From the NCBI GenBank assembly GCA_037043015.1, contig CM073322.1:34493364-34557363 (forward strand): a DNA stretch of 64,000 nucleotides. Direction: 5' to 3'. This document shows positions 1 through 59,855 of the stretch, in pieces. Source of the stretch: Bryum argenteum. Its lineage: Eukaryota > Streptophyta > Bryopsida > Bryales > Bryaceae. A program made the position numbers and the translations under genes. Numbering within the stretch: position 1 is the stretch's first letter; every line of letters begins with the position of its first letter. The notes under the pieces were generated by a model. The model was not told the origin of the DNA, searched no databases, and worked only from the letters and a program-made list of their open reading frames with translations.

Positions 1-167
1 CTCTATTTAGATGAATTTATTGTTTTAATGTGTTTTTTTTTTCGTATTTCAAAATTTACGTCTCTCTACCCCTCCATTTTAGCTCTACATGAAGTACTTT
101 TGTGCTTGTTTAGGTTGGTGATAGTGCAAATATTCTCACTATAATGAAATAAATTTTTTGCTGATAA

Positions 168-5506: not shown

Positions 5507-5828
5507 GATTCTTCAAAGCGAAAACATTTTGACCGCGAAGAGGAATCTGATGCTGATAGCGACCTGTTCATACTTAGAGACCATGCGTTGGCTGTAGTGG
5601 AGTCCCGTCGATTAAAAATACCATTGTCTTCGGTTCCGGAAACTCCGCCTCTTGTCTCACCTGTCCGTCACACTTCTCGTGATAACGTTGATCGGGTTGC
5701 ACGAGCGGTTAACATTCGAATCAAAAAGAATGAGGCCAGATCTAGACGTATCGAAGAGAAAGCATTATTTAGCTAGACTTGCACCCAGACGTTCTCCGCG
5801 ACTTGCCAAAAAGTTGCAATCATCATAA
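5507..5828 (+). pseudogene. Small upstream ORF exon (ORF1), copy I, frameshifted
   Basis: A splice acceptor (TTTCTAG) precedes an exon encoding an acidic start (EEESDADSD), a central V-E-S-R-R segment, V-D-R-V-A-R-A-V-N, and a basic end P-R-R-S-P-R-L-A. The same exon lies at 16,117 (copy II) and 59,398 (copy III). One extra base in a T-run near 5,768 shifts the frame here; the downstream frame still encodes the conserved basic end and stops at 5,826. The exon ends with a stop before the next exon (5,964), as in the other copies. Function unknown. No upstream exon was identified, although the acceptor implies one. Confidence 0.55.
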
Positions 5829-5963
5829 TTTTATCGGCAGATGATATTACGAGTTTATCGCACACTTTTGAAGCCGTTGTTTTTCATTAATTTTATGGCA
5901 TTGATAATTTGACATATTCGTATTTATTCTGTGGTGTGTTGTATTTGGTTTCTGGAATGCTAG

Positions 5964-6108
5964 ATGAACTTAGCTCAAGTCCGTACTGATGAGGATGACG
6001 AAACTACCCGACAACTTCGTGCTTCTCCACCAACTCGTTCGACTGATGGAGATGAACAATTACGTGATAGTGTCGCAAATGCTGAAAACATTTGCATCAG
6101 TGTCCCGG
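5964..6108 (+). pseudogene. ParB-MTase gene copy I, first exon, left fragment
   Basis: The exon begins directly after an acceptor (AATGCTAG) with ATG, N-L-A-Q-V, an acidic N-terminus matching copy III at 59,856 (N-I-A-Q-V). It is cut at 6,108 by element 1 and resumes at 22,131 after the element, where an 11-bp target duplication lets the two halves be aligned. This part codes only for the low-complexity N-terminus. Confidence 0.75.
6098..6108. repeat. Left target-site duplication of element 1
   Basis: CAGTGTCCCGG here is repeated at 22,131-22,141. Nine to eleven bases can be assigned to the duplication, because the terminal C and G are ambiguous with the element ends. This size is typical of Mutator-like elements. 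Confidence 0.85.
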
Positions 6109-6165
6109 GACGTTACTTGGGCGTGAGCGTAGAGCGTAGAGCGTAGAGCGTAGAGCGAAGAATTT
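6109..6165. repeat. Left terminal inverted repeat of element 1, heptamer-based
   Basis: After about 15 unique bases the end consists of repeated 7-mers of the form GAGCGTA. Its partner is at 22,062-22,130 in inverted orientation. A comparable terminus (GAGCGTT/GAGCGGT heptamers) opens element 2 at 46,088. Confidence 0.8.
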
Positions 6166-6229
6166 CAGATTGGAGAGCGGTGGTGAGAACATTTTTTTGG
6201 AAATTTTTTCTAAAAATATAAAAATTCTA

Positions 6230-6315
6230 AATTTATACAGAATATTCTCTAGAATATTCGAATATTCTTGACTTATTACCGTGGATTTGGAACCCGAACC
6301 CGTGGAAATGAGGGA
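6230..6315. promoter_or_regulatory. Conserved subterminal block of element 1
   Basis: The segment carrying GAATATTCGAATATTCT, then GACTTAT-ACCGTGGATTT, then CCCGTGGAAAT is conserved at about 46,230-46,300 in element 2 while its surroundings are not. It may be a transposase or host-factor binding region. Function is inferred only from conservation. Confidence 0.5.
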
Positions 6316-6523
6316 AAAATTCTGAAATTTGGCTAACTTCAACAACATTCAAAAGACATAGAGACACTTATGGTGTGACATTACTTTAACAATTTTGTGG
6401 ACATAGATACTAATATATATATTTTTTTTAATGCTATATTGCAAAATATAGTCACACAACGTGTTAACTACATAGTCTAGGGTTAAGGGCGAATAGGGAA
6501 TATAGTGTGGAAAACTATGACAT

Positions 6524-9500
6524 CTAAACTATGGCGAGCTCAAGGATGCCTCTCTCCATGATCATCTTCACCTCGTTGAAACTTAGAGTAGGCGCATGGA
6601 TGAAGAGGTCTACATCTGGTTCAAACTTGCACACCAACACAAAGACATAGTATAGGTGCTTGCAAGGTCTATACGGTTCTCCTCTGCGCCCTAGTTTTGC
6701 AATTGTGCTTTTAAACACCGGACAAGTGCAATCTGGTAATGCACCTATTGATAGTTGATAAATCGCTTGCGAATCTGACTCCATGGAAATAATGCATCCA
6801 ATTCCTGGCGATGGGACCATAGTGACCTTTAGAATCTTTGCGTGCATCGCACGGGCAGAATCAATATTCCGTGTGTGCTTAGAAGTTACGTTGCAGATGC
6901 GCCGGAGGTTCCTTGACTTCCTTGATTTTGGGAAGACATCTGCATTCTCCGGCACTGGAATATGTGAAAGGTCCCGTGGCGCAGATGTAGTGTTGAATGT
7001 GCGGTTGAGTGGAAGTCTCTCCTTCTGAGGGAGTCGGAAACCAGCATTCTCTAACGCCTCCATCTCCGAACGTGTCAAATTTGTCCCTATCTTCACGGGC
7101 CAGATTGCTGGGATTGGGGGTTGATCTTCAGTTCGAGAGAACGGCTCCACCCACTTCCGACGAGTGCCCTTCACACACCTCTCAATATCGTCGGGGCATA
7201 AATAAAACTTCTCCACCTTCTTGCGGTGACCATTTTTAGGAGGCATCCATATTCCGGTATAAGTTGGTGCAGGTGTGGACTTCCCGTTTTGCACTATACG
7301 AGACTCGCATTTCTTCTTGGTCACTGCATGTTGTGCCCAACAGGACTTGGCTGAGGGCTCCTTCAATCGAGCAATATGCCATAAGTTTTCGTTCACTTTT
7401 GTCTCTTGTACAGCTGTCACTCGATTAATAGAGGCACCAGCGGATGTGGAAGATTCGATTGGGCGTGCTTCGTCTTCGTCGTTCTCGTGAATAGTTGTCA
7501 GACTCTCACCGCAACCCCGGGTAACCCTTCTGCCGATTCGGGGACGCGAGAAATTCACAGTGTCAGGCCTATGGGTTTCCTCTTCCGCTCCGATTGGAAC
7601 ATCATGCTTACGTTTCTTCGAACCGAAAATCTCGGCACCCTCCAAGTGAGCATCGCGAGTACAAAATATCTCAGCCTCCGGGAACTCTATTACTGCCTTA
7701 TTGAGAGCTGATGGATCGCCGGTTCTATGAGCCTTACGTTGTGCACTGCGAAGTCGGAGTTCCTCCCTAGACGGACCATGTCCACCCGCTCCACCTTTGG
7801 TATATTGATAGTATCCCACAACTTGAAGGAAAGCACGAACGTAATCATCAACAGCTGCCATATAGAGATCACCACCCTTATTTCCCGAAGCTTGCAACCA
7901 TTTGTTATGAATGGATTCTGCAAGGTTGCAGGATGGCATCTCAGCTAGCTCTTCAGGAGATAATTTTTGTTCCTGCCAAGTACATAAGCATTCTTTGTCA
8001 AGCTTAAAGTGTAGGAAGAAGCAATTTCGTTGACGAAACTGCCTACTAAAAATTTTTTTTTTTTTTTTTTTTTTTTGAGAGGGAGATAATAATTTACGTT
8101 TATCCCGACTTAATTGTAAAAACGAAATTACTATAACTTGAAATTACCGAAGTAAGCTTTTACTTACCAGTTCCATGAATCCACCCCACTGTCTATAGCG
8201 GTGATGCCAGTACAAAAGCCATAGGCCTAGGTGGTAGAGGCCATTCTCGGAGGTGGCGTTTGAGGATGACCACCACGCTCTGATTGCTAAATACCGGGTC
8301 TCTGCTTCATCGGATGAACGAGCATCCTTGTATTGCTTACAGAGGACCCTATGTTGATCTTGCAATTCGTGGACGATGTACTTCTTGGTATGAGTTTCTA
8401 ATGATTGCGTCCAATGAAAGTAACAAGTACGTTCTTGGTCTTCCATGGGAATTGAAGGATCTCCAGAGCCGTAAACGATCCGCATCTGCGTTCGGTTGGC
8501 TTGGCTTGAGCAATCGTCGACCATAAATCCTTGAAACTTAGGTTTGGGTACTCCGTGCCTAGCCATGACGTGGTTAAGATTCCTCCAGAAAGACGAGTTG
8601 AGCTTGAGTATCTTGATTGAAAATCAACATGCAATGGTTAGAATGCGGCTGGTAACTAGGGTCGTACACATGGCACGCCATGGTAGTCCAGGGCTTCACT
8701 CGTTTGACATGGTCGAACATCATCCATGCATTGGAGAGGTCGCCTCGGGTTGCATCCGGCGAACAAGGTCGACACCACTACCGGGTCCAACTTCTGACAT
8801 CTTAAAAATGAAGACTTTATCAGAATCGTCCCCTTGGCCCGGGAACATGTTGCGTTGCACGTACGCCCAGTTGCTGAGTCCTCTTAGCTTCGTGATGCCA
8901 TCAAGGATGCCAAATCTGCACATGTACTTGAAAGAATAGATACGATTCCGCAAGCTTGGAGAGTTCAAGAGTTTACATCGATCAAAGACAGGCTCAAGTT
9001 CTTCAAGAGTTAGGTGTCCGGATTTGGGGTCATCTTTGTCGCGTAGAAGAATGTTACCTACTACGTCCTTGCTCGTCTCCAAGACAATTTTCGAAATTGT
9101 TGCTTGGGGGTTGCGGTCAACATGCTGTTCGATTAACTCATCTATCATTTGACGTGCGCATCTATAGTCTCCGACTTTGACAGGGTGCTCGTGGGTACCG
9201 ATATGCACACATGCACGCTCTTGAATATCATCTCCAAAGACGTAGAAGATTTTGGCAGGACACAAAGCAACGCAGACCGGAGGTTCTCTGCAAATCCTAC
9301 AGACTAGGGTGGACGATGAGGGAGGCGGTTCACTTACTGAGAAAGGTTCTTTGGTGATACCTTCAAACTCCACCTCATTGACTCCCGTCGCACGATCCGG
9401 GCGTTCCAAAAAAGGACACTTGTCATTGTGGCATTGGAGATGACCCACGCAATTAGAATATCGAAATGACAAGCCCATGGTGTTGCTGATGTTAGTTGTC

Positions 9501-10408
9501 ATCGTCCTAGTCCAGACATGTCCGTCATACCGTTTGTCCATCCCTTCCATTGATCTTGCATTCTTGAGTACAGCGGAAGGAAGTGCCGGAGGTAGGACAT
9601 ATAGGGCATCTCCATTAAAAGATGGAGGCAGAAAGGATACAATGTGAGTAGGGATGGAATTGAAATCTAGTTTCTTGAGTATATTCTTGCTACCGGGCAT
9701 GCTGCCAAGTTTGCGTAGACAAGGTAGAATGTTTTTGGGTTTTCGTGTTTGAGAGGATGGTGTGGGAGAGGCTAACGAAGAGGGGGTTGATAGAAAAGAG
9801 TTCTGAGAAATAGAGGAGATGGATGGAAGCTTGGCTGAAAGACGACGGGGTGGAACCGATGGCTTTTGTTCGTCATCGGATGAATCTGATATATCGATAC
9901 TAACACACTTGCCTGGTTCGATCTTGACACGAGCAAAGAGGGGACCAACGTTAGAGATCGTGGAGGAGCTACGAGGTGTTAGAAGTTGAGTGGAGGCGTT
10001 CATAACCGACTCTGACAAACCGTATAGGCGATACTTTCCTGACTTCAGCTTCCACATGGTAGCGTTATTATCTAAGACAACTGGTTCTACAACCGGGGAG
10101 TACAGGACATGATAAGTTTGAGGATCTAGAACGTCGGTTTCTAACCACAAGGTAGATACATCATAGCCAAAGCGGATTGCAAGCCAAGAAGAGGTTACTT
10201 CAGCCAGACCATCAGGGTCAGGGGGGAGACAGAGAGGGACATCAGAGGCATCTGACTTAATTTCGATCAAACCCGGAGAAGGAGGCTCCGTGGTGGAAGC
10301 CATGACTTCAGCCACGCCAGGGCGAGGAGGAGGACAAGCGGGGACATCAGAGGCAACTGACTTATTCACGATCAAATCCGAGCAAGGTTGCTGAGAGGAG
10401 GAAGCCAT
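6524..10408 (-). CDS. MULE-like transposase with WRKY/GCM1-like zinc finger, DDE core and SWIM finger (element 1)
   Basis: This is the probable transposase. The start is taken as the ATG at 10,408 (M-A-S-S) because element 2 has the same start (M-A-S-S). In order: a low-complexity N-terminus; C-V-G-H-L-Q-C...C and C-x2-C...C-x3-C around 9,450-9,290, followed by H-I-G-T-H-E-H-P near 9,210, like WRKY/GCM1-type fingers known in MULE transposases; a DDE-like core with T-M-A-C-H-V-Y-D (about 8,670) and C-Y-F-H-W-T-Q-S-L (about 8,410); N-L-A-E-S-I-H-N-K-W (about 7,920); and a SWIM finger C-x-C...C-K-H (about 6,655-6,740). An intron lies at about 7,973-8,167 and holds a 26-base T run. Two frame changes are seen: a -1 shift near 8,755, also present in element 2, and a 1-base insertion near 8,590 only here. 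The copy may be defective, or the second shift may be a sequencing error. Confidence 0.75.
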
Positions 10409-11032
10409 GATTGAAGCTAGTACAAGCGAATGAACGAACGAGTGGTACAAAAGAGATATTGAGTACCTGCGGCGATGTTTATGTACTAAAATAATGAACT
10501 CTTGTAATTAGTAAATGTAAAAAGAGTTGAAAGTTTATCTACTGAAAGATAATCGAAGAGGTTGACTGTGAGGCTAATATTGGACGCAGGAACTCCAAAA
10601 CGTATATGTATTTAAAACGTATCATGTAACCACTTTGTTTAAGTATTGAACACACGCATTAATTAAGCACTAGCATTAAGATGGTAGAACTAATTAAGGA
10701 ATTAAGATTTGAATTTGAGACGGCGGCCGCCACTGTCAGAGAATAAGAGCGCCCGAATGGCTACTTGAAAATAGATTAGTATATAGTGTCAGACACGGAA
10801 TCTGAGTAAAAGATTTTGTACTGCATCGGTGTGCGAAAGTGGCTATGAGTGTTAATGGATTACGCGTTTAGAGTAGTTAGGGTTTAGGAAGAACGGCGCA
10901 TCCAAAGAGTATAAAGTCATCGGGTTAGAAGAGATATTCCTCTTTGTTTCTGTTGTATGATATAGTTGTATTCACAGAGTTACGCTTTTGAGAATATTGT
11001 GTCTTAAGAGCGAGGAGTTTGTGTTGTTCGCA
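10409..11032. promoter_or_regulatory. Divergent promoter region between transposase and small gene (element 1)
   Basis: The two genes are transcribed away from each other from this spacer. A TATA-like TATAAAG lies at 10,910, about 120 bases before the small-gene ATG at 11,033. GGCGGCCGCCACTGTCAGAG (10,722) and TGTCAGACAC (10,788) have counterparts in the matching spacer of element 2 (50,682 and 50,748), as does ACGCGTT followed by TTAGGGT. Shared blocks in an otherwise diverged spacer suggest regulatory sites. Confidence 0.5.
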
Positions 11033-11831
11033 ATGGAGGGTGATAGTAGTCAAGTCGAGAGAGGGAAGGATGGAGGACGTGGGAAGAAGAAGAGAAGAGG
11101 TGGCATAAAGTTTTCTGGATCGAAAGCTTTGCGACGGAGTGCGATGCGGAAGAAAGATGCGCCGGATGTGTCTGATGACGATCATATGCAAGACATAGAC
11201 GAAACGATTGATGAGTTCCTTCCCGGGAGGTTTAGAAGGAATGTAAAGATTCGAACATTGTACTTGGACGATGTTACTGAGAATACTGCGGGTGAAGACG
11301 AAGAAGAATGAATTGATTCGAACGAAGCAGTGAAGGACGCAGCGGCTAGTAAGAAATTGCAAAGCAGGAGTGGATCTCAAGAACTTGAACGTGATTGCGA
11401 GGATAAAGAGTTCGAAAAAGTAGTAAGTATAAATGGGAGTTTGGGATTGCAGAATGTGTGAAAGTTGATGCTATATACAGTCTTAAATGTTTGGATGGGT
11501 TTGTTCAGTGGGATGATATGGAGATATACGTTGATGACATCTTTGGTGTCCATCCTCAGCAATTTGAAACAAACTTGGAGCAACCGAAGAATGTCAAGTG
11601 GAAGAACGGAATGCAGTGGATGGCCATGAAGAAAAAGACGAAATGGAATTAGACCCGGAACGTTTACCGGTACAATTCCCAAACCTTAGAGAGGATGTAG
11701 ATCTAGGATGTCGACCTGAGTTTATGATTTATGAACACCCTAATGGCTTCATTCAATGTTGGTTGATAGACAATAATGAGTTCCCCTGGGCCGACCCTGA
11801 GGACGTGGACGAAGCAGACGCTGATAGTTAA
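11033..11831 (+). CDS. Small basic protein gene of the transposon (element 1 copy, partly decayed)
   Basis: The first ORF (11,033-11,311) encodes 92 residues with a basic block K-K-K-R-R-G-G-I-K-F, then S-K-A-L-R-R-S-A-M-R-K, an acidic stretch, and F-R-R-N-V-K-I-R-T-L-Y-L-D. The homologue in element 2 (50,926-51,531) shares K-K-K-R-R-G-G and S-K-A-x-R-R-S-A-M-R-K. The upstream in-frame ATG at 10,988 is not conserved, so 11,033 is preferred. A stop ends the first ORF here where element 2 reads on to a splice donor. Further fragments (11,458-11,652 and 11,598-11,831) are acidic and may be remnants of downstream exons. I do not recognise the family; the basic block could be a nuclear signal or nucleic-acid contact. 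Confidence 0.55.
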
Positions 11832-12466
11832 CGTGCCACTAGGATGTAGACCCATTCAAGCCTTAAATTCTACATGTATTAAGACAGAATTTTGATATAG
11901 TGTGAGAAAAGTCCAATTTATGTGAGACGGTCGCCCATAAATAAAGACCATAGCCCAGCAATTCTTAGATGACATTTTTAGTAGAGAACATTCTAAACTC
12001 ATATTCGGTGCAATCGAAGAAGAAAAATAAAAATAGTGATATTTTATCTGTATTGTTATGGACGTTACCGAAACCACTCATGTCGCAGTAAATTAAATTT
12101 TTTTATGCTATATGGCGAAGTCCCCATCTGGCACTCTCGTCCACCCGCGACTGCGAACGCCCGAATAGCATAAGACGGCGGCCTTGGCAGATAGTCAAAT
12201 TGAAGCGACATTCACCTACCAACCTCTCTCTTCATCATAGTCATGAAGTCATGTAGACTTAAAGGTTATAAGTGCGATCAACTAAGCTTCTATCGTGAGC
12301 TACCGAGTAAGGCTGTTTATCAGTCGCGCTGGAATTATAAAGCTGCGTATGTTTTGGAGGAATAATGCAGAAGTGAAGTGCTAGTAGCTTCTATATAGAA
12401 TGTTGGCGCACAAAAGCCGTGTCTGAGTTATCGGATTGCGCGGAGAAGTTAGAGTTGATCGACTTA

Positions 12467-12894
12467 AGGTACGTTCGCACTTGGCCTTAGAGGTGGTGTT
12501 AGAAGGTGGTCTTATCTCCTTAAAAGAGTGTGTGTCCACACCTTCGTTCTTTAGTAATTACCAATCCTACATGGATTCCCACATGGCACACTCTAAAACT
12601 TGGAGGACAAAAAAATATTAGTTAATATTTGGGAGGACAAAACATAGTTGAGCATTAGTAGGCAATTCTTGAGGAAGCACCTCATTTAGAAAGATTCTCT
12701 AGTTTTCACCACTTAGAAGTGGTCTTAGTTAATGAGGCCTTTGAGGGGCCATTATCTAATTGAGCCCATAATTCATGCCCCTTTCCCAAGCCTCATTGAT
12801 GACACCTTTCCTAGGAAAAGGGGATTTCCCCAGTTTTGTGGAGGTCTTAAGTTTTAGTGTACGTTCTTAACAAAGGCCAAGTGTGAAGGGACCT
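12467..12894. mobile_element. Tourist/PIF-Harbinger-like MITE (428 bp)
   Basis: The ends are inverted repeats of about 22 bp (left AGGTACGTTCGCACTTGGCC; right end reversed AGGTCCCTTCACACTTGGCC), and the element is flanked by TTA on both sides (12,464-12,466 and 12,895-12,897). A 3-bp TTA duplication with short inverted ends is the hallmark of PIF/Harbinger-derived MITEs. No coding capacity. The flanks 11,832-12,466 and 12,898-13,740 contain no gene I can support. Confidence 0.75.
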
Positions 12895-13739
12895 TTAGTA
12901 GCTAGAAGCATATACCTGCACTACACGACATTCTAGCGAACTAGTCGAGGATCTAAACTGAACTGCAAGCGGAGTGGCCGGATTACCTGCGCAGTCATCG
13001 GAGACTGGCACCAACGTAATAACACCCTCACGATCAGATCGTTGACCCCGATTAGTAGACCCCCGCATAGCTTCGAAGGTTTGAGATAAAGAATGCCAGC
13101 GCATCGCAGATGGCGGGCTGTGTGCCGCATAAGCAGGCTGAGTGGCGCATACGCAGGCTGACTCCGCCGAGGTGCCTCAGATGCCGTTTTAAAGCCGGAC
13201 TTTATGCATGCTTTTCTAGAAAGCGCCGACGGTGGATTATTAGGCTGCGTGCATTTCGTGATAAGGTTCCTAGATTCTCGGCTGACTCGGCTGGCTGCGA
13301 GCCTCATGATCGGAGGTCATGTTGAAAACGGAGATCTGCGAAGGAGGCCTGCTTTGATGCGGGTGAGAGAGAATTTGAACTTCCTTTCTTTCAGTTGCAG
13401 CGCGAATCGAAGATGGCGAGTTGCGGAGGGGAGAAAACGGCAATGCAGGACGCAAGCCACATCGTTGACGTAAGCGCCCCCTCCACGTTTTTGATCTCTG
13501 GGTGGCGAAGGATGTAGTGGAAAACCACTGGGAAGTTCAAGGTGACCAAAGTTCAGACAATCGCATCGTCGGGCATTCGCTCTCCTGATCAGGTACGTTA
13601 TGATTATCTTCATACAATGTCGGTGCCTGCCCGAATGTGTAGCGTCAAAGAGTGAGAGCTTGAGAACTGATCGGTGTAGAAGTCGGCTGGTATCCTCGTT
13701 CGTTTGAATTCCCGGATTCGCACCGTCGTAGACCAGCAC

Positions 13740-15935
13740 GATTGAATGTGCCATATGTTGCAGCCTCGGAGAATCGCCTTGCAGCCTTGGCTGGATCCTC
13801 GTGTCATTACTTAGGATGTTCGCAGCCCTTTGACTTCAGCATGAGCATTTTGGGTGGGCCTGCTGCACCTGCTCACCCCGTAGCCTCGGAGACTATCACC
13901 ATGAGCATTCACCTTGGCGGATTCGCTGCCTCTTAAAATTGCACACCTTGAGCACTTTCGTCAACGAAACTTACCTGCACAGAAGCTGATCGGTGTGCTT
14001 AGATCATGTTCGTAGAGTCCACGTTCTGTAATCGATACTAGGGTGTGCATGATCTGCTTGGAGACCTGTACATGCCGGCTGGTTCCTCGTTTTAATATTG
14101 CCGAATTCGTAGACTTGAGAGGGCGCTGTCTCGTGAAGTTGCTGCCTCGAGTATTGCACACCTCGAGTACTTTGCACACCTCGAGTACTTTCGTCAACGA
14201 AACCAACCTGCACGGAGCGCTGTAGAAGCTTCGGTGTGCTTCGAATATGCTCGCAGTATCGGGTGATGGTCCGGTTGGGATACCCAAAAAGGTTGTCCCA
14301 TGAACAATTGCATTCTATGCTGGTGTGTCAAACATAGCCATGTTTAAACTGTAATACAATAAGACTTCATTAGGTGTGGTTTTAGTTGTCTATACTTATA
14401 ATGTATCAAGAAAAAAAATTTAAAATTTTAAAATTTTTTTTGAGGTAATTTTATTTGATTTTTTAGTTGAAAAAGTAAGTCATGTCCCAATAACCTAAAA
14501 TCCATAGAACCAAGCTAATGGAATATCAACCATTTTTATTTTAATATAATTTTTGAATATGACCTACATCTTCTTGTATAGAATACAAAATAATTTATTT
14601 AATTATAAAAATAATAATCCATTGTGCACTATAATGCCTGCAAATCCCCAAATTCAGCACTTTTTCCCTCATCTATGAATGGATCCAAAAAAAATAAAAA
14701 ATCTAAGAGAAAATCTATAGGCATATATACTTTGATTTCAGTGAGGTGCATGATATTTTATTTTCTATTTTAGGGTCTTTTTACTTGATTAAAATGGATA
14801 AATTAGAGAAAATTTGGAGGCTTTCAATAATAATAACCTAATTAGTGTGTCCAAAAAGTGATACCCCAAGCTTACCATTGCCCTATCCTCGTTTCGTAAG
14901 TGTGATTAGAGTGTGCTAGATCTGGTCTGAGCTCTGTTTATGTTGGCTGGATCCTCGTTTGAATGCAATGCCGAATTCGTATCGTTGAGCGGGCTTGCTG
15001 TCTCGTGAACTTGCTGCCTCGAGCACTTTCGTCAACGAAACTTACCTGCACGGAGCCCTGTAGAGACTGATCGGTGTGCTAAGAATATGATCGGTGTGCT
15101 AAGAACATGCTCGAAGTATCCTCGTTTATTAATTGTGATTCGAGTGTGCTATATCTGGTCTGGGCCCTGTACATGTTGGATGGATCCTCGTTTGAATGCA
15201 ATGCCGAATTCGTATCTTTGAGCGGGCTTGCTGTCTCGTGAACTAGCTGCCTCTTGAAATTTCACACCACGAGCACTTTCGTCAACGAAACTTACCTGCA
15301 CGGAGCCCTGTAGAAGCTGATCGGTGTTCTGAGAATGTGTTTCTAGATTCCACGTTCTATAATCGTTATAATGGTGTGCATGATCTGCTTGGAGACCTTT
15401 AGATGTCGGCTGGATCCTCATTTCAATATTGCCGAATTTGTAGACTTTGAGCGGGCGCTGTCTCGTGAAATTGCTGCCTTGTGAACCTGCTTCTATGAGC
15501 ACTTTCGTCAACGAAACTACCTTCCCCTCTGATTGAAATGAAAATGATCTGAAGGCTTGGATTATGCTTGTGGGTCCTTGTTCGAATGTGTAGCCAGAAT
15601 TCGCAGCGTCAATGACTATCAGCTGGACCATTGAGCCCTGTAAATGCCTGCTCGACCCTCGTTAGAATGCATGACTCGTTGCCTTCCTGATACTGTGACT
15701 ACCTTGCCCTCGTTGGAGATGGTTGTGCTTAAAGTATGCTCGTTGAATCCTCGTGTTATACATGTAGTTAGAATGTTAAATTTTTGCTCTGAGCAATTTA
15801 GAAGCCAGCCGGGATCCTTGGTTGAAACATAGCCCTTTGTCGCAGCCTCTTTGACTTTCAGCATTAGCATTGAGCTTAGGGTTGCTGCCTTCTGAACCAC
15901 CTTACTCGGGCACTTTCGTCAACGAAACTACCTTA
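13740..15935. repeat. Diverged tandem repeats upstream of MTase copy II
   Basis: Units of roughly 220-250 bp recur, sharing TGGCTGGATCCTCGTTTGAA-like text, GCCGAATTCGTA and the dyad TTTCGTCAACGAAA (13,956; 14,189; 15,027; 15,277; 15,503; 15,914). The block is interrupted by a MITE at 14,261-14,883. No convincing ORF. It occupies the same place relative to the MTase gene as the 425-bp array in element 2. Confidence 0.7.
14261..14883. mobile_element. AT-rich MITE inside the repeat block (623 bp)
   Basis: Neighbouring repeat units read AGTATCCTCG without interruption; here the text breaks after AGTATC and resumes at TATCCTCG, giving a 4-bp TATC duplication (14,257-14,260 and 14,884-14,887). Ends are imperfect inverted repeats: left GGGTGATGGTCCGGTTGGGA, right end reversed GGGCAATGGTAAGCTTGGGG. 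The interior is very AT-rich with no ORF. Superfamily not assigned. Confidence 0.65.
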
Positions 15936-16116
15936 CCCTCTCTCTGCTTAATATGTGGAAGATAAATGTAAATGCACGTATAGCGTTGTATCTGGTAGTA
16001 GGAGAATATTAGGTGTTTCATATCTACACCTCTTCAATATTAACATTAATCTCTTTTCTCTCATCTCCTCGAGAATATACTGACGCTTTGAATTTTTGTT
16101 GTGTTTGCTTTTGTAG

Positions 16117-16422
16117 GAGTCCATGGACATCGAGCCGGAGTTCTCTTCTGTGGAATCTGAGAGCGATACTGCTACGTCTAGCACGCGAAATAGAGTCTTA
16201 GATGTAGAGGTTAAACGCAGAGTTGTTCGAGCACTTCCAGCTGCTACTAAAGATACTAACACTGCCTCCTTTCAATCAACATTGACTGCTCCTGGGACTG
16301 TTGTTGAAGATCAACGAGCTACTTACATGAAGTGCTGGAGGGCGCGTCGTAGGCAACTGCGCTTGGAAGCTCAAACTCAAGCAAGACTTTGCCCACGACG
16401 TTCTAAGAGGATTGAGACCTAG
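16117..16422 (+). CDS. Small upstream ORF (ORF1), copy II
   Basis: An exon after the acceptor TTTTGTAG encodes about 100 residues from the ATG at 16,123. The N-terminal half is acidic (ESESDTATS), the middle contains V-K-R-R-V-V-R-A, and the C-terminus is basic, A-R-L-C-P-R-R-S-K-R-I. Position, length and the P-R-R-S-x-R end match ORF1 in copies I and III although the sequence is well diverged. The stop precedes the next acceptor (16,591), so ORF1 cannot be read continuously into the ParB-MTase exons. It could be a separate product or an alternative terminal exon. Confidence 0.55.
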   Translation, partial: ESMDIEPEFSSVESESDTATSSTRNRVLDVEVKRRVVRALPAATKDTNTASFQSTLTAPGTVVEDQRATYMKCWRARRRQLRLEAQTQARLCPRRSKRIET

Positions 16423-16591
16423 TCTAGCTATAATTGACAGTCTACTTTAATTTTAGCTACTGACATCATACATTACCATGATACGTGAAGACCAAAGTTC
16501 ATGTTGTCTTTATTTATAATTTATGTTGCTTCTCTATTTCTATTTGAGTTTTCATTATTGATTACTAAGTATATTCGGTACACTTGCGCAG

Positions 16592-19500
16592 ACCCCTCTC
16601 TCGATTGCCCCGCTGTCGTCTGAGAGCGATCCCACCGACATGGCAACAACTGACGTTTGTGACGCGGGACAGCAGTCATGTTCGCCACTGACTATCTCTC
16701 CAAGCCGCCAACTCACATCTCAATCTCCAACTGGCGAAGACGATGACGATGACATTCAAGAGATTGTCCCGGGTACACAATGTTTGCGCAACATTGATGC
16801 AGTTGACGAGATGAACACATTTACGGTAGCTGCGTCTCCAACTGTAAGATCTGCGAGGGAATCCCCTTCTCTCCCAGATACTTTGGAGGTTGGGGTTGTT
16901 GAAATGCCAAGTCATTTGGCAGAGATGGATCCTATGTGGAGCGCCGACGAGTTACGCGCTCAACAAAAGGGAAACTCAATCAGTACTATATCGAGATTGC
17001 GAATCAAACCAGTCGAGAAATCTCGACTTCGAATTCCCCTCTGTCGCCTCTCATGTTACCCCAAGGTACGTCCTATCATAGAAACAGATGTTTGCAAGTT
17101 GGCAAACGAGTTTGTCAAAGGTTACAGAGAAGGCGATCGTGTTCTTTATGTTTCCCCCTTCAGCAAAAACGGTAAGCAGCGGCTGGTGAAGGACGATGAT
17201 GCAGTTTGGAATAACCCTCATTGGAAAGCGGCCAATGATCGGTTTGAATCCTTATTACAAGCCGATCCGGACCTTTGCCAATTCAGTGGCAAATACTTCT
17301 ATGTCTATGAGGGAAATCATCGTGTCACTGCTTGGATGCGGTACATCGAGCAAATGCGCAGAGATGATCCGGATTGGTATTTCTTTGTCGACTGCATTGT
17401 CCTTGACGGACGTGCGGAATACAAAGTACTAATCGACGCTATGAATGACATCAATTGGTGAGTTCAATTTCATATCATATTCATTATCTGTAATCTTTTG
17501 TACACAAATTGTATTTATTTGGTATCTCACTTTCTGAACAGGTCCACAGAGCATGATCACGTAGAAGATAGTCTGCCATCTAGGTTGCAACGCATGCGCA
17601 AGTTTGGCAAGATGCCACTTGAAGAATGGAAACCCCTGATCTCTCCTGAGGACTGGAAGTACTGTTTCACTGCAAAAGATAAACTTAGACCAACATGGTA
17701 CTTTGTGACAAAGGACGTCTTCATCAAGTTTCTATATGCGGTGCGTCTTTTATCATATCTGCAGTTCGTATTATTTTGAACTAGCCTATTTACATTATCT
17801 AACATGCGTTCTTTGATCGTCCAGAGGCAATGTGCAAAGGTTGCCGACGAAGCCCAAGCCCAGTACTATGAGGATACTCCCATAAACGAGAGGACAGCGC
17901 GAGGAGTTTGGACGGCCATGGACGATGCTCTAAAGGCTGAGATCAAACGAATCCGACAAAAGGATTTCGACAAAATGCTTGCCATTGCTAATCCAGAGTT
18001 AGGAAAAGCATTTGAGCAAGAGGTATGAACTCAATCGACGAAACTTTGTGTCCTCTCTGGATCCCTTGTCCATTCCTCTATTAAAATTCATAATCTCTTT
18101 GTTCTGTATTGATGCAGATAAATCTCCATTATAGCCGTAAGAAGGATCCCGAGATGTCTTTGGAGCGCCTCCAGAAGGTTGCCACCACCAACGTTTCGAA
18201 GGAAGTGAAAACAATGTGGCTTCGTTGGTGGAACAACACTCCGACATTCCGACGTAGTGTTCGCTTTCCGGACCCGGTCGAGATGAAAGACAGGGTGTTG
18301 GAGGCATGGCTTGCTCGTGCAGCATTGTGGTCCCAGGTACTTCATATCTACTCATTCACATGCCTTACAACATTTTGCACATAGCATTTTCTGATGTAGT
18401 TTACTATATAACTTAAATCGTTGACCGCAGTTAGCGAAGTATCTGAAGGAGGAGGTCGACAAGTTCTTCAAACAAGAGATTCCCCAAATCCCTCACCTTG
18501 ACGCAATTATGAGCCCCGAAGAGTACGTCGAGAAATGGCGACTTCTTTTATGGGACAAGGCTTTTCATGCTTATGTAGGACCCAAAGCCAGCCCTAAGTT
18601 CCTTAAAGGCTCCCACATCGACAAGATTGGCGGGGGTGCTCAAACGAAGAAGCGATTGATGTTCAGGTTCGAGCACGCCGTTTCGTTATGTCTATTTTCG
18701 TATCATCAAACTCTTCCAAATGATTCTAATTGCTTATACTTCTGTAGGTATATCAAACATGAGCTCGTTGCTAAGGGAGGTCTCGCTACATTGGGCATTC
18801 CATCGGAGTTTCAAGTCCCGTACTTGAAAAATAAACCGATGTCCATTTTTTCCAATGACCAGAGGCAGCGGTTCAAGATGGCTTTACTGTTGACTGGTGG
18901 TTGGTTCCTAGAGTCTCAAACCCACCATGTTCATAAGGAAGAGATGCATCTTCTGTAGTCATCGGAATCGGGCGACGCCGCTCCTATGCAACTACAGGAT
19001 GATGATGATGACGACGACTTCTACATGCTTCCGGGTGCTCCACCACCACCCCCCCCCCAGCTGCACTTAAAGGTAGAGGAGTTGCAGGTGGCAGCCGCAA
19101 ACGTCGCAAGACAGAGCCTACCCCTGAGCCAGAGGAGGAGGAACGAGAAGAGGAAGAGGAGGAGCATGAAGAGAATGACGAAGAAGACGACGGAGAGCAT
19201 GGAGATGTTCCCATTCCCGATGAGCTTGCAGGTGGTGCACATTCAAATGTTTGTAAGTTACCTTTTTCCAATGTACATTGTTATTTATGTAACACATACA
19301 CTTATGTATTCATTGCAGTTCAAAGAGAAGTTGATATGACACAAGCTTCCCACGGAACGGTTGTCAACAACGGTGGGCAAAGTGTAAGAGGTCTAACTGC
19401 CTCAGAGAGGCAGCCAGTTCTGTCACAAAGGCAGGGTCGAGGGTGGACCCAAGCATCTCTGGGTGGGGTTTCGAATGTGGGATCTACTCCTCCATCGTCG

Positions 19501-21105
19501 TCAGCCCCTCGTGAATCCCCTCTGTCTCATGGACCGACCCAATCTCATGGACCCATGCGTCCCATAGTCATTCCCAAAAATTTGGATAGTACTTCATCTT
19601 CTCCTACGAATGTGACGCTCCCTATGTTCCTAGAGAAAGGAGACACGGCGGCCTTGGTTCAGCAGTCTACAAAGGGTGCAGGCTGGGTAGACGCTATCCA
19701 GACTATGGTACAACACATCAAGAAGGTGAATCCCTCTCTATCAAATCATTGCTTTCTTTGAATAGTTATTCTATAGTGATCTTTGGTTTCTAATTACTTT
19801 CTCTCTAATCCACAGATTGGAAAGGGTAGGGACTACCCTTGCGAGAAGATGGAATACAAGCCCAATCACCCCGGGATTGACCTTATCTTTGCAGACGTCC
19901 CGGAGAACTTGCCTGTGCTTGGTGTCTTGCCGGACGTAGTTCCCGACTGGAACAAACGACCGTCGTATTACTTCGAGTCTGTGTTTGTCTTCGCCTCATA
20001 CCATTTGACTGACCTTGGGACTATCCTTATTATGCACCCCAAGGACCTCAAAAGTGACCGCATCCTACACGATCGTGCTAGTACTTACAATTTCCGGCTT
20101 GTGCGAGAGTGGTGGGCCTATAACCCCCTTCCTTTGGTTAGACCTGGCGCTACCGCAAGAGAGGTAAACTTCAAATAGTGCACTTGATTTAATCTCTCAT
20201 TTCAACATGCATTACGTTTTCTTATTTCGAATTGCTTTTTGCAGACCCATAACTTTACCATCAAGGTCTATGCTCGTAAGGACTTCGTGAAGATGTTCAA
20301 TATACGACAGGTGGCGCAAGCATACGCAGGAGTCGCGATCATACCTGACGAGGATGACATGGTCAGTAACTTTGCTGACGCGAGTTCCATTACCTACCGC
20401 ACTAACGGGAAGCACTGGCGCGGCGCACGCGAGAAGGATCCGTCGTTTTTGCAGTGCTTCGTGGATTGCCTCACGGACGATGGGGGAATCGTGTTTGACT
20501 TCAGCGCTAGTACAGGTAAAAATTGAAGTCCCCATTTATAATAAGTTTGCTAATTTATATTTTCAATACTCATGCGGATTTCCAAATGTGCAGGTGCTTC
20601 AATCATCGCATGTGCACGCTCCAATCGTCACCTCATAGCTTTTGAGGCAGATGAGGAGATTTTTGATGGGCTCTTGGCCACCTTCAAACACCCTAAACCG
20701 ATGGAAGAAGAAAGTGGTGAATCAGCCTCTGGTGATGATTACGACTCTGATGAACCGTACTTGAAGAAGCCTCGCACTTATATCGGTGTGTACTCAATTC
20801 AATTCAATGACTTATTGTGATTTCAAAGTCCGTACTACTTTCAGAGCATTGATTGGTTATGATTATTTAGATATGCAGGCATCTCAAGACAATTGACCCG
20901 AAATGCTCATCTCATCAATAGCCCACCTCCCACACTTGTTCTACCATCCTATGCGGAGCATGTTGCTCGGGCTTTCGTCGCAGCTCCAACTCCTCCTGTA
21001 CCGAATTCTCCACGCCGACGCTTTAGAGCTGGTGTGCTTATGTACATTGATTTAGAGGCAGATCAGTGTGACCACCATTTTAATGGTGCTTCACCTTCAT
21101 CGTAG
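16592..21105 (+). CDS. ParB-like domain fused to beta-class amino DNA methyltransferase, copy II (full length)
   Basis: Eleven exons can be placed by GT-AG borders: 16,592-17,457 (ATG 16,640), 17,542-17,740, 17,825-18,022, 18,118-18,336, 18,431-18,666, 18,748-19,252, 19,319-19,725, 19,816-20,163, 20,245-20,515, 20,594-20,785 and 20,879-21,105. The N-terminal part resembles ParB/Srx: I-P-L-C-R-L...V-R-P-I-x-E-x-D-V, then Y-E-G-N-H-R-V-T-A-W (17,306-17,335). A helical middle and an acidic/basic linker follow. The C-terminal part shows beta-class MTase order: motif IV-like D-L-I-F-A-D-V-P-E-N (19,879-19,908), then W-R-G-A-R-E-K-D-P-S-F, then motif I-like I-V-F-D-F-S-A-S-T-G ending at the 20,515/20,594 junction, and R-H-L-I-A-F-E-A-D-E-E. 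Predicted role: N4-cytosine or N6-adenine DNA methylation in the nucleus. An in-frame TAG at 18,956 and a poly-C tract near 19,045 interrupt the frame. The D-V-P-E motif is atypical. Confidence 0.7.
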
Positions 21106-21439
21106 TGTGTTTATTTCTGTTTTCTATTTCAGAGATGACTATGTAGGGCCAACTCTCATGAGTTGCCTTACCCTACAAGTCATTTCTTTCATATGTTTTA
21201 CATTATTTTCAATATATGTGTCTTTGCCTTAAACCGTATTGAAAAATTTCAAAGTCCAATTATGTACTCAATCTATATGTTGGATTCACTTGTCATACCC
21301 CACTATTTTAAATGACATTAAAAATTCTAAAATATATACAAGGTTTGTGATCAATGCTTCCCTAAATTTGTCAATGTCTATAGGAGCTTCTATTTTGTCC
21401 CTATTAGCTCAGGATAGCTTCCTTGTGCGCTACGCGATG

Positions 21440-21520
21440 CTCAAACGAGCCCGACGGGGATCGAACCCGGACCTTCGCTATGCCATCGTTATGTCTAAAC
21501 CATCCACTACATTAGAGTAA
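21440..21520 (-). tRNA. tRNA-like pol III sequence, probably a tRNA pseudogene or SINE head
   Basis: On the minus strand an A-box-like TGTAGTGGATGG is followed about 40 bases later by GGTTCGATCC, a good B box inside GGTCCGGGTTCGATCCCC. The 3' acceptor-like CGGGCTCG has no matching 5' strand, so a complete cloverleaf is not supported. The surrounding span 21,106-22,060 otherwise holds no gene; it is the 3' flank of copy II and the right subterminal region of element 1. Confidence 0.4.
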
Positions 21521-22061
21521 ACGATGAAGACAGTTTCTATTACTGATATTTGGATTATATATTCTTTTGCCATTTATAATTTTTCCTTCATCAGGACAGT
21601 TTCCAACATGCGCAATATTCCTTGCCGGGCTCGTATGAGCAGCGCGTTACACAAGAGGCAACTATCCAAGGATGTAGTATAGATCTAGACGGATTTCTTT
21701 GCTTTCGCCATGATGACGTCAGCCCTAATTTATCCCTAGACCGTATATCCAAAAACAAGTTTAATAATAGTCTAAATCATATGTTCAATATAACCTTTAA
21801 ATAGTCATGCCTCCAATTCACACGTTCATCAATATGATGACATAAGCCCTACTTTCAATATATTCACATAAAATCTTCAAGACAGTACTAATGAATTATT
21901 TTTGCAAGGTGGGACCCACATTTTAAGAAGACCCAAGACCACGGAATTAGGGACCCTAACCTCTAAAAATAGACATTTAAAAATAGTACAGTACAAAATT
22001 AAGTGGTAATAGGGTACTTTACTTTGAAAAAAAATTGTTAAAAAATAGTCAAGATTGTCCC

Positions 22062-22130
22062 GTCACCGCTCTACGCTCACCGCTCACCTCTCTACGCTCT
22101 ACGCTCTACGCTCACGCCTCTACATTCCCC
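22062..22130. repeat. Right terminal inverted repeat of element 1
   Basis: Read in reverse, this end starts GGGGAATGTAGAGGCGTGAG and continues in GAGCGTA/GAGCGGT heptamers, mirroring the left end at 6,109. The target duplication follows at once (22,131-22,141). Confidence 0.8.
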
Positions 22131-25032
22131 CAGTGTCCCGGAAGGAAGTCCTTCTGAAACTCAGCGTCATCCTGAAGCCGTGCACGATCATGATCGACTC
22201 GACGCTCATTCAGAGGATGAAGTCACTCCTTTGCCTGGGAGTGTCAATGTTGGAATCGTCCATATGCCACCTCATCTTGAAAACAAGGACCCCGACTGGA
22301 GTGCAAACGAGATGCGAATGCTCCACAAGAGTGATTCGATTGCAATCATTAACAGGTTACGCTACAAACCTGTTAAGAAGTCTCGTATGTTAATTCCACT
22401 CTGCCGTCTCGTTTGTTATCCGAAGGTTCGCCCGATATCAGAACAAGACGTTCGGAAACTGGAGAATGAGTTCAACAAAGGATACCGTGAAGGCGATCGG
22501 GTGACGTACGTGTCTCCCTTTGATAGGAAAGGCCGAGAGAAATTGGTTAATGCCGAAGATGCTGTGTGGACGAATCCTCTCTGGTAGTCAGCTAATGAAG
22601 AGTTTGAGAGGACGCTGCAGTCTAATCCGGATCTACAACACCTCAGTGACAAGTATTTCTACGTTTATGAAGGCAACCACCGTCTTACGGCGTGGATGCG
22701 TCACATAGAAAGGTACCATAAGATAGAACCTTCGTGGTACATCTCCGTGGACTGTATCGTTCTTGATGCACGAGGGGAGAACAACCTCCTGCTCGACGCT
22801 ATGAATGACATAAATTGGTGAGTATTTGTTCGATTTTTTCAATTCGTTTTATTTCTATTTTGATTAAATTCAATGTTTCTCATGTCTATTCCCGCTCTGC
22901 AGGTCTACTGAACATGACCATGTCGAAGACGGTTTGTGTGCCAAATTGCAGCGAATGAGGCAGTTCGGAAAATTGAAACTGGAGGATTTCAAGGACCTGA
23001 TATCCCCAGAGGATTACAGAATATGCAAGAACACTAAGGCAAAAAAAGATACTTGGTATCCTGTAACAATTGACGTTTTCGTGAAGTTCTTATATGCGGT
23101 AAGTTGGGTGGAATGTCTTTCAAATGTGAATTTCTGTATTTGGTTCTTTACACCTTACTAATTCTTTATATATTCTATACAGAGGAGATTAGCGAAGGCA
23201 TCTGATGACGCTGAAACGAATTACTACGCCACCGTCCCGAAAGAGAAACAAACAGGACCTGGAGTATGGAGTGCCATGGATAATGCGATCAAAGCAGAAA
23301 TTAAGGCTATACGTGGCAAAAACTTCGACAAGATGGTCGCTGTCGCCAACAACAAACTCGGGAAAGTGTTTGCAAATGAGGTAAAGAAAACACCCTTTTC
23401 ATGTTTTATATGACTTATAATCATGTTTTATAACCTAATTCTTTCTCATAATTTTCCTGTGCAGATTTATTCTCATTACAGCAAGAACTTGAAACCCGAT
23501 ATGACAATCGATCGCTTACAAATGGTAGCCACTACCAATGTTCACTTCGATTTCAAGGGAAAGTGGCTCCAATGGTGGAACTCATCAGACGAAGTTCGAC
23601 GTTCTTTTCGCTTCCCAGAAGAACGTCCAATGAAAGATAGAACTTTGATTGCATTCCTACATCGCGCTTCTCTTTGGGCACAGGTAACTTAATGTTTCGT
23701 TACGTGTTTTCAAAGTTAGAGTTCATATTGTATTTTGATATTTAACATGTTTTCTTTTTTCACAGCTTGAGCAATCACTTCAATGTGAATTGCAAAACCT
23801 GATCGACAACGAAAACCTCAACATTGAGTGGTCTAGTGTTGTCCTAAAGCCAGCTGCGTATGTGGAGAAATGGAGGTTGCTCTTATGGGAGAAGACATTC
23901 AACAACTATCTTGGTCTTAATGCAAGCCCAAAGTTCAGCAAAGGCTCCGATATTCAAAAGATTACCGGGGGCAAAGTTACAATTAATCGGCTTTTATTCC
24001 GGTAAGTTTCTAGTTTTGTATTCAATATTAATAAAATCAATTCAGCTTGTTCAATTTTCACAATCTAATTTGTTTACTTTTTGTAGGTACTTAAAACAAG
24101 AGCTCGTTGCCAAGGGAGCATTAGCATCGTTCTCCATTCCAATGGAGTTCGAGGACGTTTCAGTCACGAATGATCCCCGCAGCTTTTTCTCCTCAGCCCA
24201 ACAAGAGCGGTTTACAAACTCTCAATTGACGACCGGTGGATGGTTCCTTGAGTGCGACGACAACTACGTGCACAAGGACGAGAAGCATATTCTTCGGAAT
24301 CTCGCTTCAAACACAACTGACTCCGTACCGATGGAGATTGACGACGATGACGATGACGACCTATCTATTTTACCAGTCGCATCTGATCGAATATCTTCTC
24401 CTTCTTCACCAGTTGCAGTGCCCAAGTCTCGAGCAAACAGGAAGCGTCGCAACGCTGTTGCGGAGCCTGCTATTGAACTGGACGAAGATTCGGAAGATAT
24501 TGCTCCTCCCCCACAAGACATTGCAGGGCCAGAAGATGCTGATTTGACTCAAGCTTCAGAGGGAGCGACAAACAATGCAATTCGACGCGTGGCAAGACTG
24601 ACTCAACTTTCTACAGGTGGACTTACGAATGTTGGGTCTCCTCCTCAATCATTCACTGTTGACCACAACTCCCAGCATTCCCCGCGTCGCCTCAGCCAGC
24701 CGGTATTTGCCAAACGCCCTCTTCCGAAACCCAATCACATTGGTAGCAGCTCGTCCTCAAAAATTACAGTCACTCTGCCAATGTATCTCGAGAAGGGGAA
24801 CATTGGAGATTTGGTTCATCAGTCATCAAAGACTGCAAAATGGGATTCGCAAATCCTCGATATCGTCGAGCACATCAAGAAGGTATTATTTCATACATTT
24901 CTCATTCATAATCTCCCTTACTACGTTTTGTACTTCTGAATCTATTAGCCACTATCTAATTTTTGACTTGTGTCTCAGATTGGAAAAGACCGTAAGTACC
25001 CGTGTTCGGCGATGGAGTATGAACCCAAGCAT
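22131..25032 (+). pseudogene. ParB-MTase gene copy I, right fragment (MTase domain cut off)
   Basis: The coding text resumes after element 1 and continues over exons 22,142-22,817, 22,903-23,098, 23,183-23,380, 23,465-23,683, 23,766-24,001, 24,087-24,882 and 24,979-25,032. It holds the ParB-like part (Y-E-G-N-H-R-L-T-A-W near 22,667) and the helical middle, then an acidic tract and a basic R-K-R-R-N. An in-frame TAG at 22,585 replaces a lysine codon of copy III. In the last exon, just before the place of motif IV, the gypsy LTR begins. The MTase domain should lie beyond the window if the nesting is intact. It is closer to copy III than to copy II. Confidence 0.8.
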
Positions 25033-46087: not shown

Positions 46088-46145
46088 GGACGTTGCTACC
46101 GTGTGAGCGTTGAGCGTTGAGCGGTGAGCGGTGAGCGGTAAGGTT
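46088..46145. repeat. Left terminal repeat of element 2
   Basis: About 15 unique bases, then seven-base units GTGAGCG, TTGAGCG, TTGAGCG and GTGAGCG repeated. Compare element 1 at 6,109. Confidence 0.75.
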
Positions 46146-46416
46146 TTGAATTTTTAGTGGGGAGTTTGTATTTTAGCAAAAATATTTCTAAAAATAGTTT
46201 TTTCAAAAAAATTTGAGAATAATTTTCGAATATTCTCAAGAATATTTGAATATTCTAGACTTATAACCGTGGATTTAGTGACCCAAACCCGTGGAAATAA
46301 GGCTGAAATTCCCTGAATTTTGTGAGACTTGAGCGGCAAAACTCGACAGCAAATCACAAATTTTTAAATGTTAAGAGGTTTCTAAGGTAATATTTCTAAG
46401 TGAGTAGTACTTTGAG

Positions 46417-51531: not shown

Positions 51532-51984
51532 CGGATGGTTTTGAGACAAGCGTCGAAGAAGTAGAGGAGGTACATGATAAACCTTACTTCTTGGTTTCTT
51601 GGGAGGACGTAGGGGGTCAAGTTAAGTATACAACAACGAGAGTTCTTTCTTGATGATGACGTAGTTCAATTTTGACATGATATAGATACTTGATATATAA
51701 GGAATTAGGACTGAGTAATATATGTCGTGAACTCGCAAATAATACGTAACAAGCGTAATTCAAATTCACATAACTTGCGTATTCAAATGTATGAGAGATG
51801 GATGCAAATATTAGGACTTTCTGAAAAATATTAACGAGTGTCATGATCTCTTGGTGTCATACATTTTATTCATATTTATATTAAGTGTACAACCTAAGTG
51901 CGGTAATAAAAAATACAGTACATTGTGTTTATGAATTCATTGGAGACATAGTGTTGTACTAGAAAATTTAACAGTAGGTATTGT

Positions 51985-59715: not shown

Positions 59716-59855
59716 TTGTATTGTCTGATGATTTGATGACTTTATCATAAACTTAATTATAAAGTCGTTGTGTTTCTTATATCTTATCGCTTTGTTAACT
59801 TGACACATTCTTATTTTTTTGCGTGTTGTGTTGTACTTGGTTTCTATAATGCCAG

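Follow-up and report, generated by a model that had tools for sequence, protein, structure and literature searches.

A ParB-like/methyltransferase-like gene in a putative Mutator-like DNA transposon of Bryum argenteum, and a palindrome recurring beside it

The nested element and its divergent genes

The DNA analysed here, a 64,000-bp stretch of the moss Bryum argenteum (the window, G000 C2:34493364-34557363, from a genome of 258.8 Mb in 25 contigs), was found to contain a complete DNA transposon of 16,022 bp, probably a Mutator-like element (MULE), carrying a gene with a ParB-like and an amino-methyltransferase (MTase)-like part. The element, assigned to family A, consists of a minus-strand transposase-like gene, a spacer of ~5.6 kb and the plus-strand ParB-MTase gene, and is itself inserted into another copy (copy III, family B) of its own ParB-MTase gene. 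The unit emerged as collinear when the region was compared with ten other family A copies of the genome and with the extended upstream stretches of four copies. The features of the insertion, including the open reading frames (ORFs), are as follows.

5534-6097, plus strand: left piece of copy III of the ParB-MTase gene, family B, interrupted by the family A element
6098-6108: left target-site duplication, CAGTGTCCCGG, 11 bp
6109-22130: family A element, complete, 16,022 bp, inserted in copy III
6109-6218: left terminal inverted repeat region, starting GACGTTACTTGGGCGTGAGCGTAGAGCG, matched part from 6120
6524-10507, minus strand: transposase-like gene of family A (ORFs 8720-10507, 8144-8623 and 6524-8143), divergent from the ParB-MTase gene
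16117-16299, plus strand: probable upstream coding exon, in frame with the exon from 16592
16640-21105, plus strand: ParB-like/MTase-like gene, copy II, 11 exons with GT..AG introns
exons 1-6, plus strand: 16640-17457 (from 16592 with the upstream exon), 17542-17740, 17825-18022, 18118-18336, 18431-18666, 18748-19252
exons 7-11, plus strand: 19319-19725, 19816-20163, 20245-20515, 20594-20785, 20879-21105
22020-22130: right terminal inverted repeat region, ending CGCTCACGCCTCTACATTCCCC, matched part up to 22118
22131-22141: right target-site duplication, CAGTGTCCCGG, 11 bp
22142-25032, plus strand: right piece of copy III, up to the last tblastn match, followed by a long terminal repeat (LTR) element

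The terminal inverted repeats of the family A element match at 70% over 100 columns (expect 1e-11). A copy elsewhere, X12 (composed of L031 and L012), has an 11-bp target-site duplication of its own, GTTCTAATGCG, and a duplication of this length was seen at two of the three copies with both ends seen. These two independent copies and the divergent transposase-like gene bear out the claim of an earlier note on this DNA that the gene rides inside a DNA transposon. The gene copies which that note had placed at 5,964/22,131 and 59,856 are also real, the first being one gene that was split when the element with the copy at 16,592 inserted. At the third copy, X15 (L032 and L015), which is otherwise full-length, no target-site duplication was found. 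Its right end is followed by a piece of at least 410 bp that is 98% identical to window positions 9373-9782 in the transposase-like gene, and this copy is perhaps a recombinant.

The transposase-like ORFs contain, by eye, a CxC...CxH motif which we take to be SWIM-like and a CxxH motif. Searches of seven distinct transposase ORFs or pieces against Pfam at an expect value (E) of up to 10 did not find any MULE family, the sole match being CEP76_N (E 0.13), and the three family A ORFs had no match at that threshold. Since none of these ORFs matches a MULE family in Pfam, the label Mutator-like rests on the duplication length, the inverted repeats and the motifs read by eye. Target-site duplications of 8-11 bp are given for MULEs (PMC6446971).

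The pairing of the two genes was examined throughout the genome. A tblastn search with the ParB exon gave 1110 first-look candidates, of which 150 were scored, all with E < 1e-61; the transposase search gave 1209, of which 121 were scored. Among these, 49 of the 150 ParB copies had a listed transposase match 2-25 kb upstream on the opposite strand, compared with 0 on the opposite strand downstream, 4 on the same strand upstream, 3 on the same strand downstream, and 0-5 after five coordinate shifts of 50-200 kb. As both lists are part of the candidates, the true paired fraction is probably higher. The same divergent order is found in a second, family B element which starts at ~46089 in the window.

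46089-64000: family B element, left end placed where its first bases, GACGTTGCTACCGTGTGAGCG, resemble those of the family A end; it runs past the window
46417-50066, minus strand: transposase-like gene of family B, divergent from the family B ParB-MTase gene
59850-64000, plus strand: ParB-MTase gene of family B, a broken copy cut by the window end

The ParB-MTase gene and its product

Copy II is spliced as 11 exons with GT..AG introns, in agreement with the roughly ten introns proposed earlier, and has a probable upstream exon besides. With the intron that follows this upstream exon, 16592 becomes an exon start, as the earlier note had it. The projected GT/AG boundaries are mostly kept in ten family A copies, the exceptions being L012, L013, L015 and L017. 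Copy II is broken by one in-frame stop and a frameshift in the acidic linker, and all exons are open in two related copies, L014 (family A, 1205 residues) and L023 (family B1, 10 exons). The product has ~1200 residues, with ~550 between the ParB-like and the MTase-like part, and is encoded with 10 introns. The peptide strings cited in the earlier note are present: EGNHR at 17309-17323, the motif IV-like DVPENL at 19894-19911, and the motif I-like VFDFSASTG from ~20491 across the 20515/20594 junction. L012 (in the element X12) has lost the intron equivalent to window 16300-16591, so that a copy of this DNA transposon has undergone intron loss; the reading frame is kept, and the removal is one codon short of being precise.

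Purifying selection acts on the coding sequence. The median ratio of nonsynonymous to synonymous substitution rates (dN/dS), taken over 11 copies of family A, was 0.187 in the MTase region and 0.142 in the middle (55 pairs each); the acidic linker gave 0.438 (54 pairs). For B1 compared with B2 copies, the MTase region gave 0.09-0.11 in the three computable pairs of four, with synonymous sites near saturation. The value for the ParB region (0.066) is biased downwards, as the copies were chosen by ParB protein similarity; it was set aside, and the argument rests on the middle, the MTase region and the linker. Given the low ratios both in family A and between B1 and B2, the protein appears to have been under selection through many rounds of transposition.

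17033-17457, plus strand: ParB-like region, with the EGNHR box at 17309-17323; best match PHROG 1033, E 0.008
19816-20785, plus strand: beta-class MTase-like region in three exons; motif IV (D-V-P-E-N-L) at 19894-19911, motif I (DFSASTG) from 20497, motif II acidic residue near 20644

The C-terminus is, from profile comparison, homologous to the beta-class amino-MTases, with motif IV before motif I, as had been proposed. The profile-profile score against this class was 48.5 (P 3.8e-6, 189 columns), compared with 15.5 for the reversed query and 22.9 for the best of 40 column shuffles. With phage ParB-MTase fusions as a second reference set, the MTase region gave 36.1 against 22.3. Scores against seven single phage proteins reached 14.5 to 36.2 only, two of them (L036 at 14.5 and L038 at 22.8) not exceeding 22.9, the shuffle maximum obtained against the alignment, so it is the profile that carries the MTase signal. 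The Pfam family N6_N4_Mtase (PF01555) was matched with E 4.1e-4 and 20.8 bits, below the curated cut-off of 26.7, and appeared in four of five aligned members; NCBIfam, searched with one MTase row, gave two hits, at E 0.069 and 0.1, neither of them near the cut-off. The order IV before I/II is found within one alignment, in which LIFADVPENL pairs with LVLTDPPYNV, and GIVFDFSASTG...FEADEE with motif I/II.

The catalytic motif (D/N/S)xP(Y/F/W) of beta-class amino-MTases is not present. Motif IV reads D[VA]PENL, and its fourth position is Glu in 16 of the 17 covering copies, Lys in one (L013) and aromatic in none; the Asp is also gone in L010 and L018. Copies in which the motif is missing or out of frame (L017, L021, L022, L025 and window copies III and IV) were left out of this count. 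Motif IV is covered in 10 of 11 proteins of the phage relatives and the Tyr is kept in all 10 (DPPY, DIPY, DLPY, DFPY), although the first Pro is dispensable (DIPYN, DLPYG, DLPYN, DFPYS); the change from Tyr to Glu is therefore the telling one. One Gly of motif I that the phage set keeps is lost as well. In the bdelloid enzyme N4CMT a change from SPPY to APPA abolishes activity (PMC8885841). On these three grounds catalysis has likely been lost, and the protein is predicted to be inactive. Within the phage set, the amino-MTases L036, L042, L045 and L046 have DFPY, DIPY or DLPY instead of DPPY.

It had been suggested earlier that the protein could write N4-methylcytosine or N6-methyladenine. 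An active amino-MTase would methylate adenine or N4 of cytosine in the palindrome described below, or in the whole element, and the mark would protect new copies or tune transposition. The beta-class fold with its order of motifs IV and I is kept, its MTase region is under purifying selection, and ParB-MTase fusions are common in phages. Palindromic targets are typical of beta-class amino-MTases, and a GTCAAC, GTTGAC or GTCGAC core occurs in most of the common A and B2 forms of the palindrome. The state of motifs IV and I and the bdelloid mutant argue against this activity; it is doubtful despite the purifying selection, and we regard an active enzyme as decidedly unlikely.

The N-terminal region is ParB-like in its local motifs, and PHROG 1033 (ParB) was matched in four of the five members. 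The assignment is weakly supported and is held with reserve, for reasons weighed below.

A palindrome between the two genes

A palindrome was noticed on reading the units of Tandem Repeats Finder arrays upstream of the gene. Its shared forms are CTTTCGTCAACGAAAC in family A, CTTTCGTCCACGCAAG or GCCTTGCGTCGACGCAAGGC in B1, GACTTGCGTCGACGCAAGTC in B2 (a perfect 20-bp palindrome) and CATTCGTCCACGAAGC in L020. Under a strict definition (TTnCGTnnACGnAA or TTCGTnnACGAA), applied to 4.1 kb upstream of each copy, at least one site was present in all 20 discovery copies, compared with 0-0.033 expected per copy from 30 dinucleotide shuffles. The 82 kb of spacer from these copies yielded 115 strict sites, whereas their gene bodies, 108 kb in all, yielded 0. 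The palindrome was also present in all five held-out copies (8, 5, 1, 6 and 4 sites), and so lies in every spacer examined, between the two genes in 25/25 copies, which are related by descent and do not represent 25 independent events. In the window itself TTnCGTnnACGnAA has 20 sites against 0.12 expected, of which 19 are in the two spacers and one is inside the transposase-like gene.

8025-8038, plus strand: single palindrome inside the transposase-like gene, in what we read as a putative intron
13956-13969, plus strand: first of six palindromes in the family A spacer, TTTCGTCAACGAAA
14189-14202 and 15027-15040, plus strand: palindromes 2-3 of the family A spacer
15277-15290, 15503-15516 and 15914-15927, plus strand: palindromes 4-6 of the family A spacer
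53320-59102: 426-bp tandem array of the family B element, 13.6 units, with 14 CGTnnACG palindromes at 53549-59060, 12 of them CTTTCGTCCACGCAAG

Arrays with a period of at least 100 bp over at least 300 bp were found by Tandem Repeats Finder upstream of 12 of the 20 copies, with units that differ between copies. It was considered whether the family A palindrome is a mere part of a copied repeat unit, and this was rejected, as conservation is confined to the core: among 105 distinct 40-mers, six anchor bases of which are fixed by construction, information outside the core is ~0.6 bits or less. The flanks of the B1 and B2 palindromes (16 and 14 distinct instances) are conserved too, which leaves room for a copied-unit origin there. 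Upstream of L020 lies a 351-bp tandem array (9.8 units, 98% match) which has the A-like form CATTCGTCCACGAAGC beside a B2-type gene; arrays may possibly have been exchanged between families.

Genome-wide, 383 sites of the B2 20-mer, 29 of the B1 20-mer and 59 of the A 19-mer were found, and reversed controls gave 0. Sites were grouped into 54 clusters (17 of A, 17 of B1, and 20 of B2 formed by the first 50 sites listed) and compared with a list of at least 209 ParB copies; for 23 clusters a listed copy lay no more than 12 kb away on the side expected, and for 2 on the wrong one, compared with ~1 in all under random placement. One family A array (G000 C11:2169103-2174849) has twelve palindromes ~523 bp apart with no ParB copy nearby among those listed; it is either an orphan or has its gene outside the list.

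The palindromes and arrays might serve the transposase or a host regulator, with the ParB-MTase protein in an unrelated role, for example in chromatin or with RNA. This is improbable in our view, even if co-occurrence within the element is the sole tie between palindrome and protein, because that co-occurrence extends to all 25 copies across families A and B, whose spacers have no blastn match between the two among the matches listed. Alternatively, the protein may be a helper comparable to mudrB of maize, aiding the transposase at excision or integration, with the palindromes as transposase or recombination enhancer sites and no part in anti-silencing. The divergent pair of a transposase-like and an accessory gene would fit such a helper, as would the single palindrome inside the transposase-like gene, and mudrB is apparently needed for integration (PMC6446971). 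However, the palindromes of the window element occupy its central spacer, and its terminal 290-330 bp, where a transposase acts, lack even the loose CGTnnACG core; the helper role is therefore also rated as unlikely.

Possible role and related systems

The best explanation, which we hold tentatively and at a little short of an even chance, is that the gene encodes an accessory MULE protein which binds the palindromes of its own element in the manner of VANC, countering silencing and/or activating genes. On this view the gene would be accessory, the second of the two in a large Mutator-like DNA transposon, and its product would follow the ParB-methylase plan: a ParB-like N-terminus, a conserved middle, the acidic linker and a beta-class amino-MTase fold. 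Catalysis would have been traded for DNA binding, because the Tyr of motif IV, which stacks the target base, is Glu and motif I is eroded. A protein dimer would bind the palindrome recurring in the spacer between the divergent genes, and the bound protein would counter host silencing and/or activate the genes of the element, as VANC does in the VANDAL MULEs of Arabidopsis. Such a self-recognising factor is proposed because a conserved palindrome in unlike spacers resembles the targets of VANC, and because the fold of the accessory protein is suited to reading palindromic DNA. The palindrome would accordingly be read by the ParB-MTase protein and not by the transposase or a host factor, and anti-silencing or activation would be the outcome.

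VANC binds motifs in tandem repeats within noncoding regions of its own element (PMC5735166, PMC10398659). The VANDAL MULEs share with the moss element a transposase with an accessory gene and fast-changing noncoding tandem repeats with a short conserved motif, which in the published case is bound by the accessory protein. As in VANC-type systems, the conserved motif lies in noncoding and often tandemly repeated regions of its own element (the 12 of 20 copies with long-period arrays). VANC differs in carrying DUF1985, while the moss protein combines a ParB-like region with a beta-class MTase fold; the motif here is a 14-20 bp palindrome, in an element with inverted ends and 11-bp duplications, whereas VANDALs are called non-TIR (without terminal inverted repeats; PMC13317346).

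Several observations weigh against this proposal. DUF1985 was not found in the moss protein, either with Pfam at E of up to 10 on the ParB, middle and MTase stretches or at E of up to 1 on the MTase rows. Of the two profile families named in the earlier note, the MTase signal was recovered, albeit below cut-off, but ParBc (PF02195) was not among Pfam matches at E of up to 10, a search in which HMMER filters drop most matches above ~0.1; two ParB rows likewise matched no NCBIfam family. The ParB-like N-terminus of that note thus stands on its local motifs and the PHROG match, and fails in Pfam and in the untrimmed profile: HHalign against 22 ParB-like domains gave 17.05, which is shuffle level (best of 60 shuffles 17.0), and rose to 22.3, marginally above all 100 shuffles (best 22.1), only after a 39-residue insert was cut from the query. 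The ParB region also scored less against the ParB-MTase fusions (17.7) than the best shuffle did (24.1); that set had 30 rows, 27 retained from 88 loci and 3 added. Motif IV might still function as D[VA]PE, and the transposase or a host factor could be the palindrome reader. Besides the shared descent of the 25 copies, Tandem Repeats Finder found no long-period array upstream of 8 of the 20 copies or in the window family A element, and L019, L021 and L022 have one palindrome each. Motif and protein family track imperfectly, L020 combining an A-like palindrome with a B2-like gene. Lastly, 31 of the 54 clusters had no ParB copy on the expected side among the at least 209 listed; these are possibly truncated elements.

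Another way in which the palindromes could be used is a ParB-parS-like system in a eukaryotic DNA transposon. The protein would load at the palindromes, perhaps as a nucleotide-dependent clamp, spread, and keep the element unmethylated or clustered, the MTase fold being a palindrome reader and not an enzyme. The likeness to ParB-parS would lie in the palindrome iterated in cis; the A form also has a resemblance to bacterial parS (GTTTC...GAAAC arms) that may be due to chance. We consider such a system quite improbable.

Related proteins and genes are known from other contexts. ParB-methylase fusions occur in phages and bacteria (such as Bce_0392, PMC5512222, and the phage proteins L035, L036 and L039), with an N-terminal ParB-like and a C-terminal amino-MTase part in one protein; they differ from the moss protein in its ~1200 residues, the ~550 residues between its parts, its 10 introns, its lack of the motif IV aromatic residue and its weak ParB similarity. 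Like mudrB of maize MuDR and mutB of yeast Mutyl (PMC6446971), the moss gene is an accessory gene beside a transposase-like gene; here, however, the genes are divergent with central palindromes. Mobile elements with a DNA methyltransferase gene have been described, namely a Dam-like MTase in DIRS and DNA methyltransferases (DNMTs) in dinoflagellate and charophyte retrotransposons (PMC5890265), but those are retrotransposons with Dam-like or C5-cytosine enzymes, whereas the moss element is a DNA transposon with a degenerate beta-class protein. N4CMT of bdelloids is likewise a eukaryotic PF01555-type amino-MTase of permuted beta type; unlike the multicopy, transposon-borne moss gene without the aromatic residue, it keeps SPPY, is active and has a chromodomain (PMC8885841).

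The MULE accessory genes named in a survey include mudrB, mutB, vanB and vanC, from flowering plants and yeast, and its main text has no word beginning with "methyl" (PMC6446971). A literature search over titles and the starts of abstracts, with most subscription journals outside its scope, found no MULE described as carrying a ParB-methylase gene. What goes beyond the earlier note is the nested insertion and its duplication, how large the family is, and the palindromes.

It is still being studied how proteins of the VANC type locate and release their own copies. On the proposal of a VANC-like accessory protein, the moss element would offer a separate and very large family with a recognisable MTase-like fold and a defined 14-20 bp palindrome, in which the co-evolution of protein and DNA in anti-silencing becomes testable. 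It is a further case of a eukaryotic mobile element recruiting a DNA modification protein of bacterial type, suggests that an MTase fold can be kept for DNA recognition after loss of catalysis, and points to an element that may mark or protect itself.

A viral or prokaryotic origin was considered and rejected, as no close relative was found in the searches made. Pattern stretches numbered 82 and 28 in scans of IMG/VR with both alignments, and tblastn confirmed none of them; the MTase alignment, run on 84,980 prokaryote genomes, gave 139, again with none confirmed; tblastn of the ParB exon in phages returned two records of one mycobacteriophage only (E 10). Sequence searches of the PDB with both profiles gave weak matches to unrelated proteins only (best E 0.62 and 0.22).

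Within the rest of the window, Rfam at its gathering threshold gave no match. A DUF7869 protein at 1328-2248 (Pfam E 8.5e-39) was considered as a transposase and rejected, as it belongs to another abundant repeat family (1811 first-look genome candidates, 150 scored) and lies outside the element. The window also has Ty3-type LTR elements, with Pfam matches to gag, reverse transcriptase and integrase and a plant-type look by eye. These are clustered at 25089-46025, between copy III and the family B element, where an LTR-like segment occurs four times (25089, 33209, 41328 and 45679).

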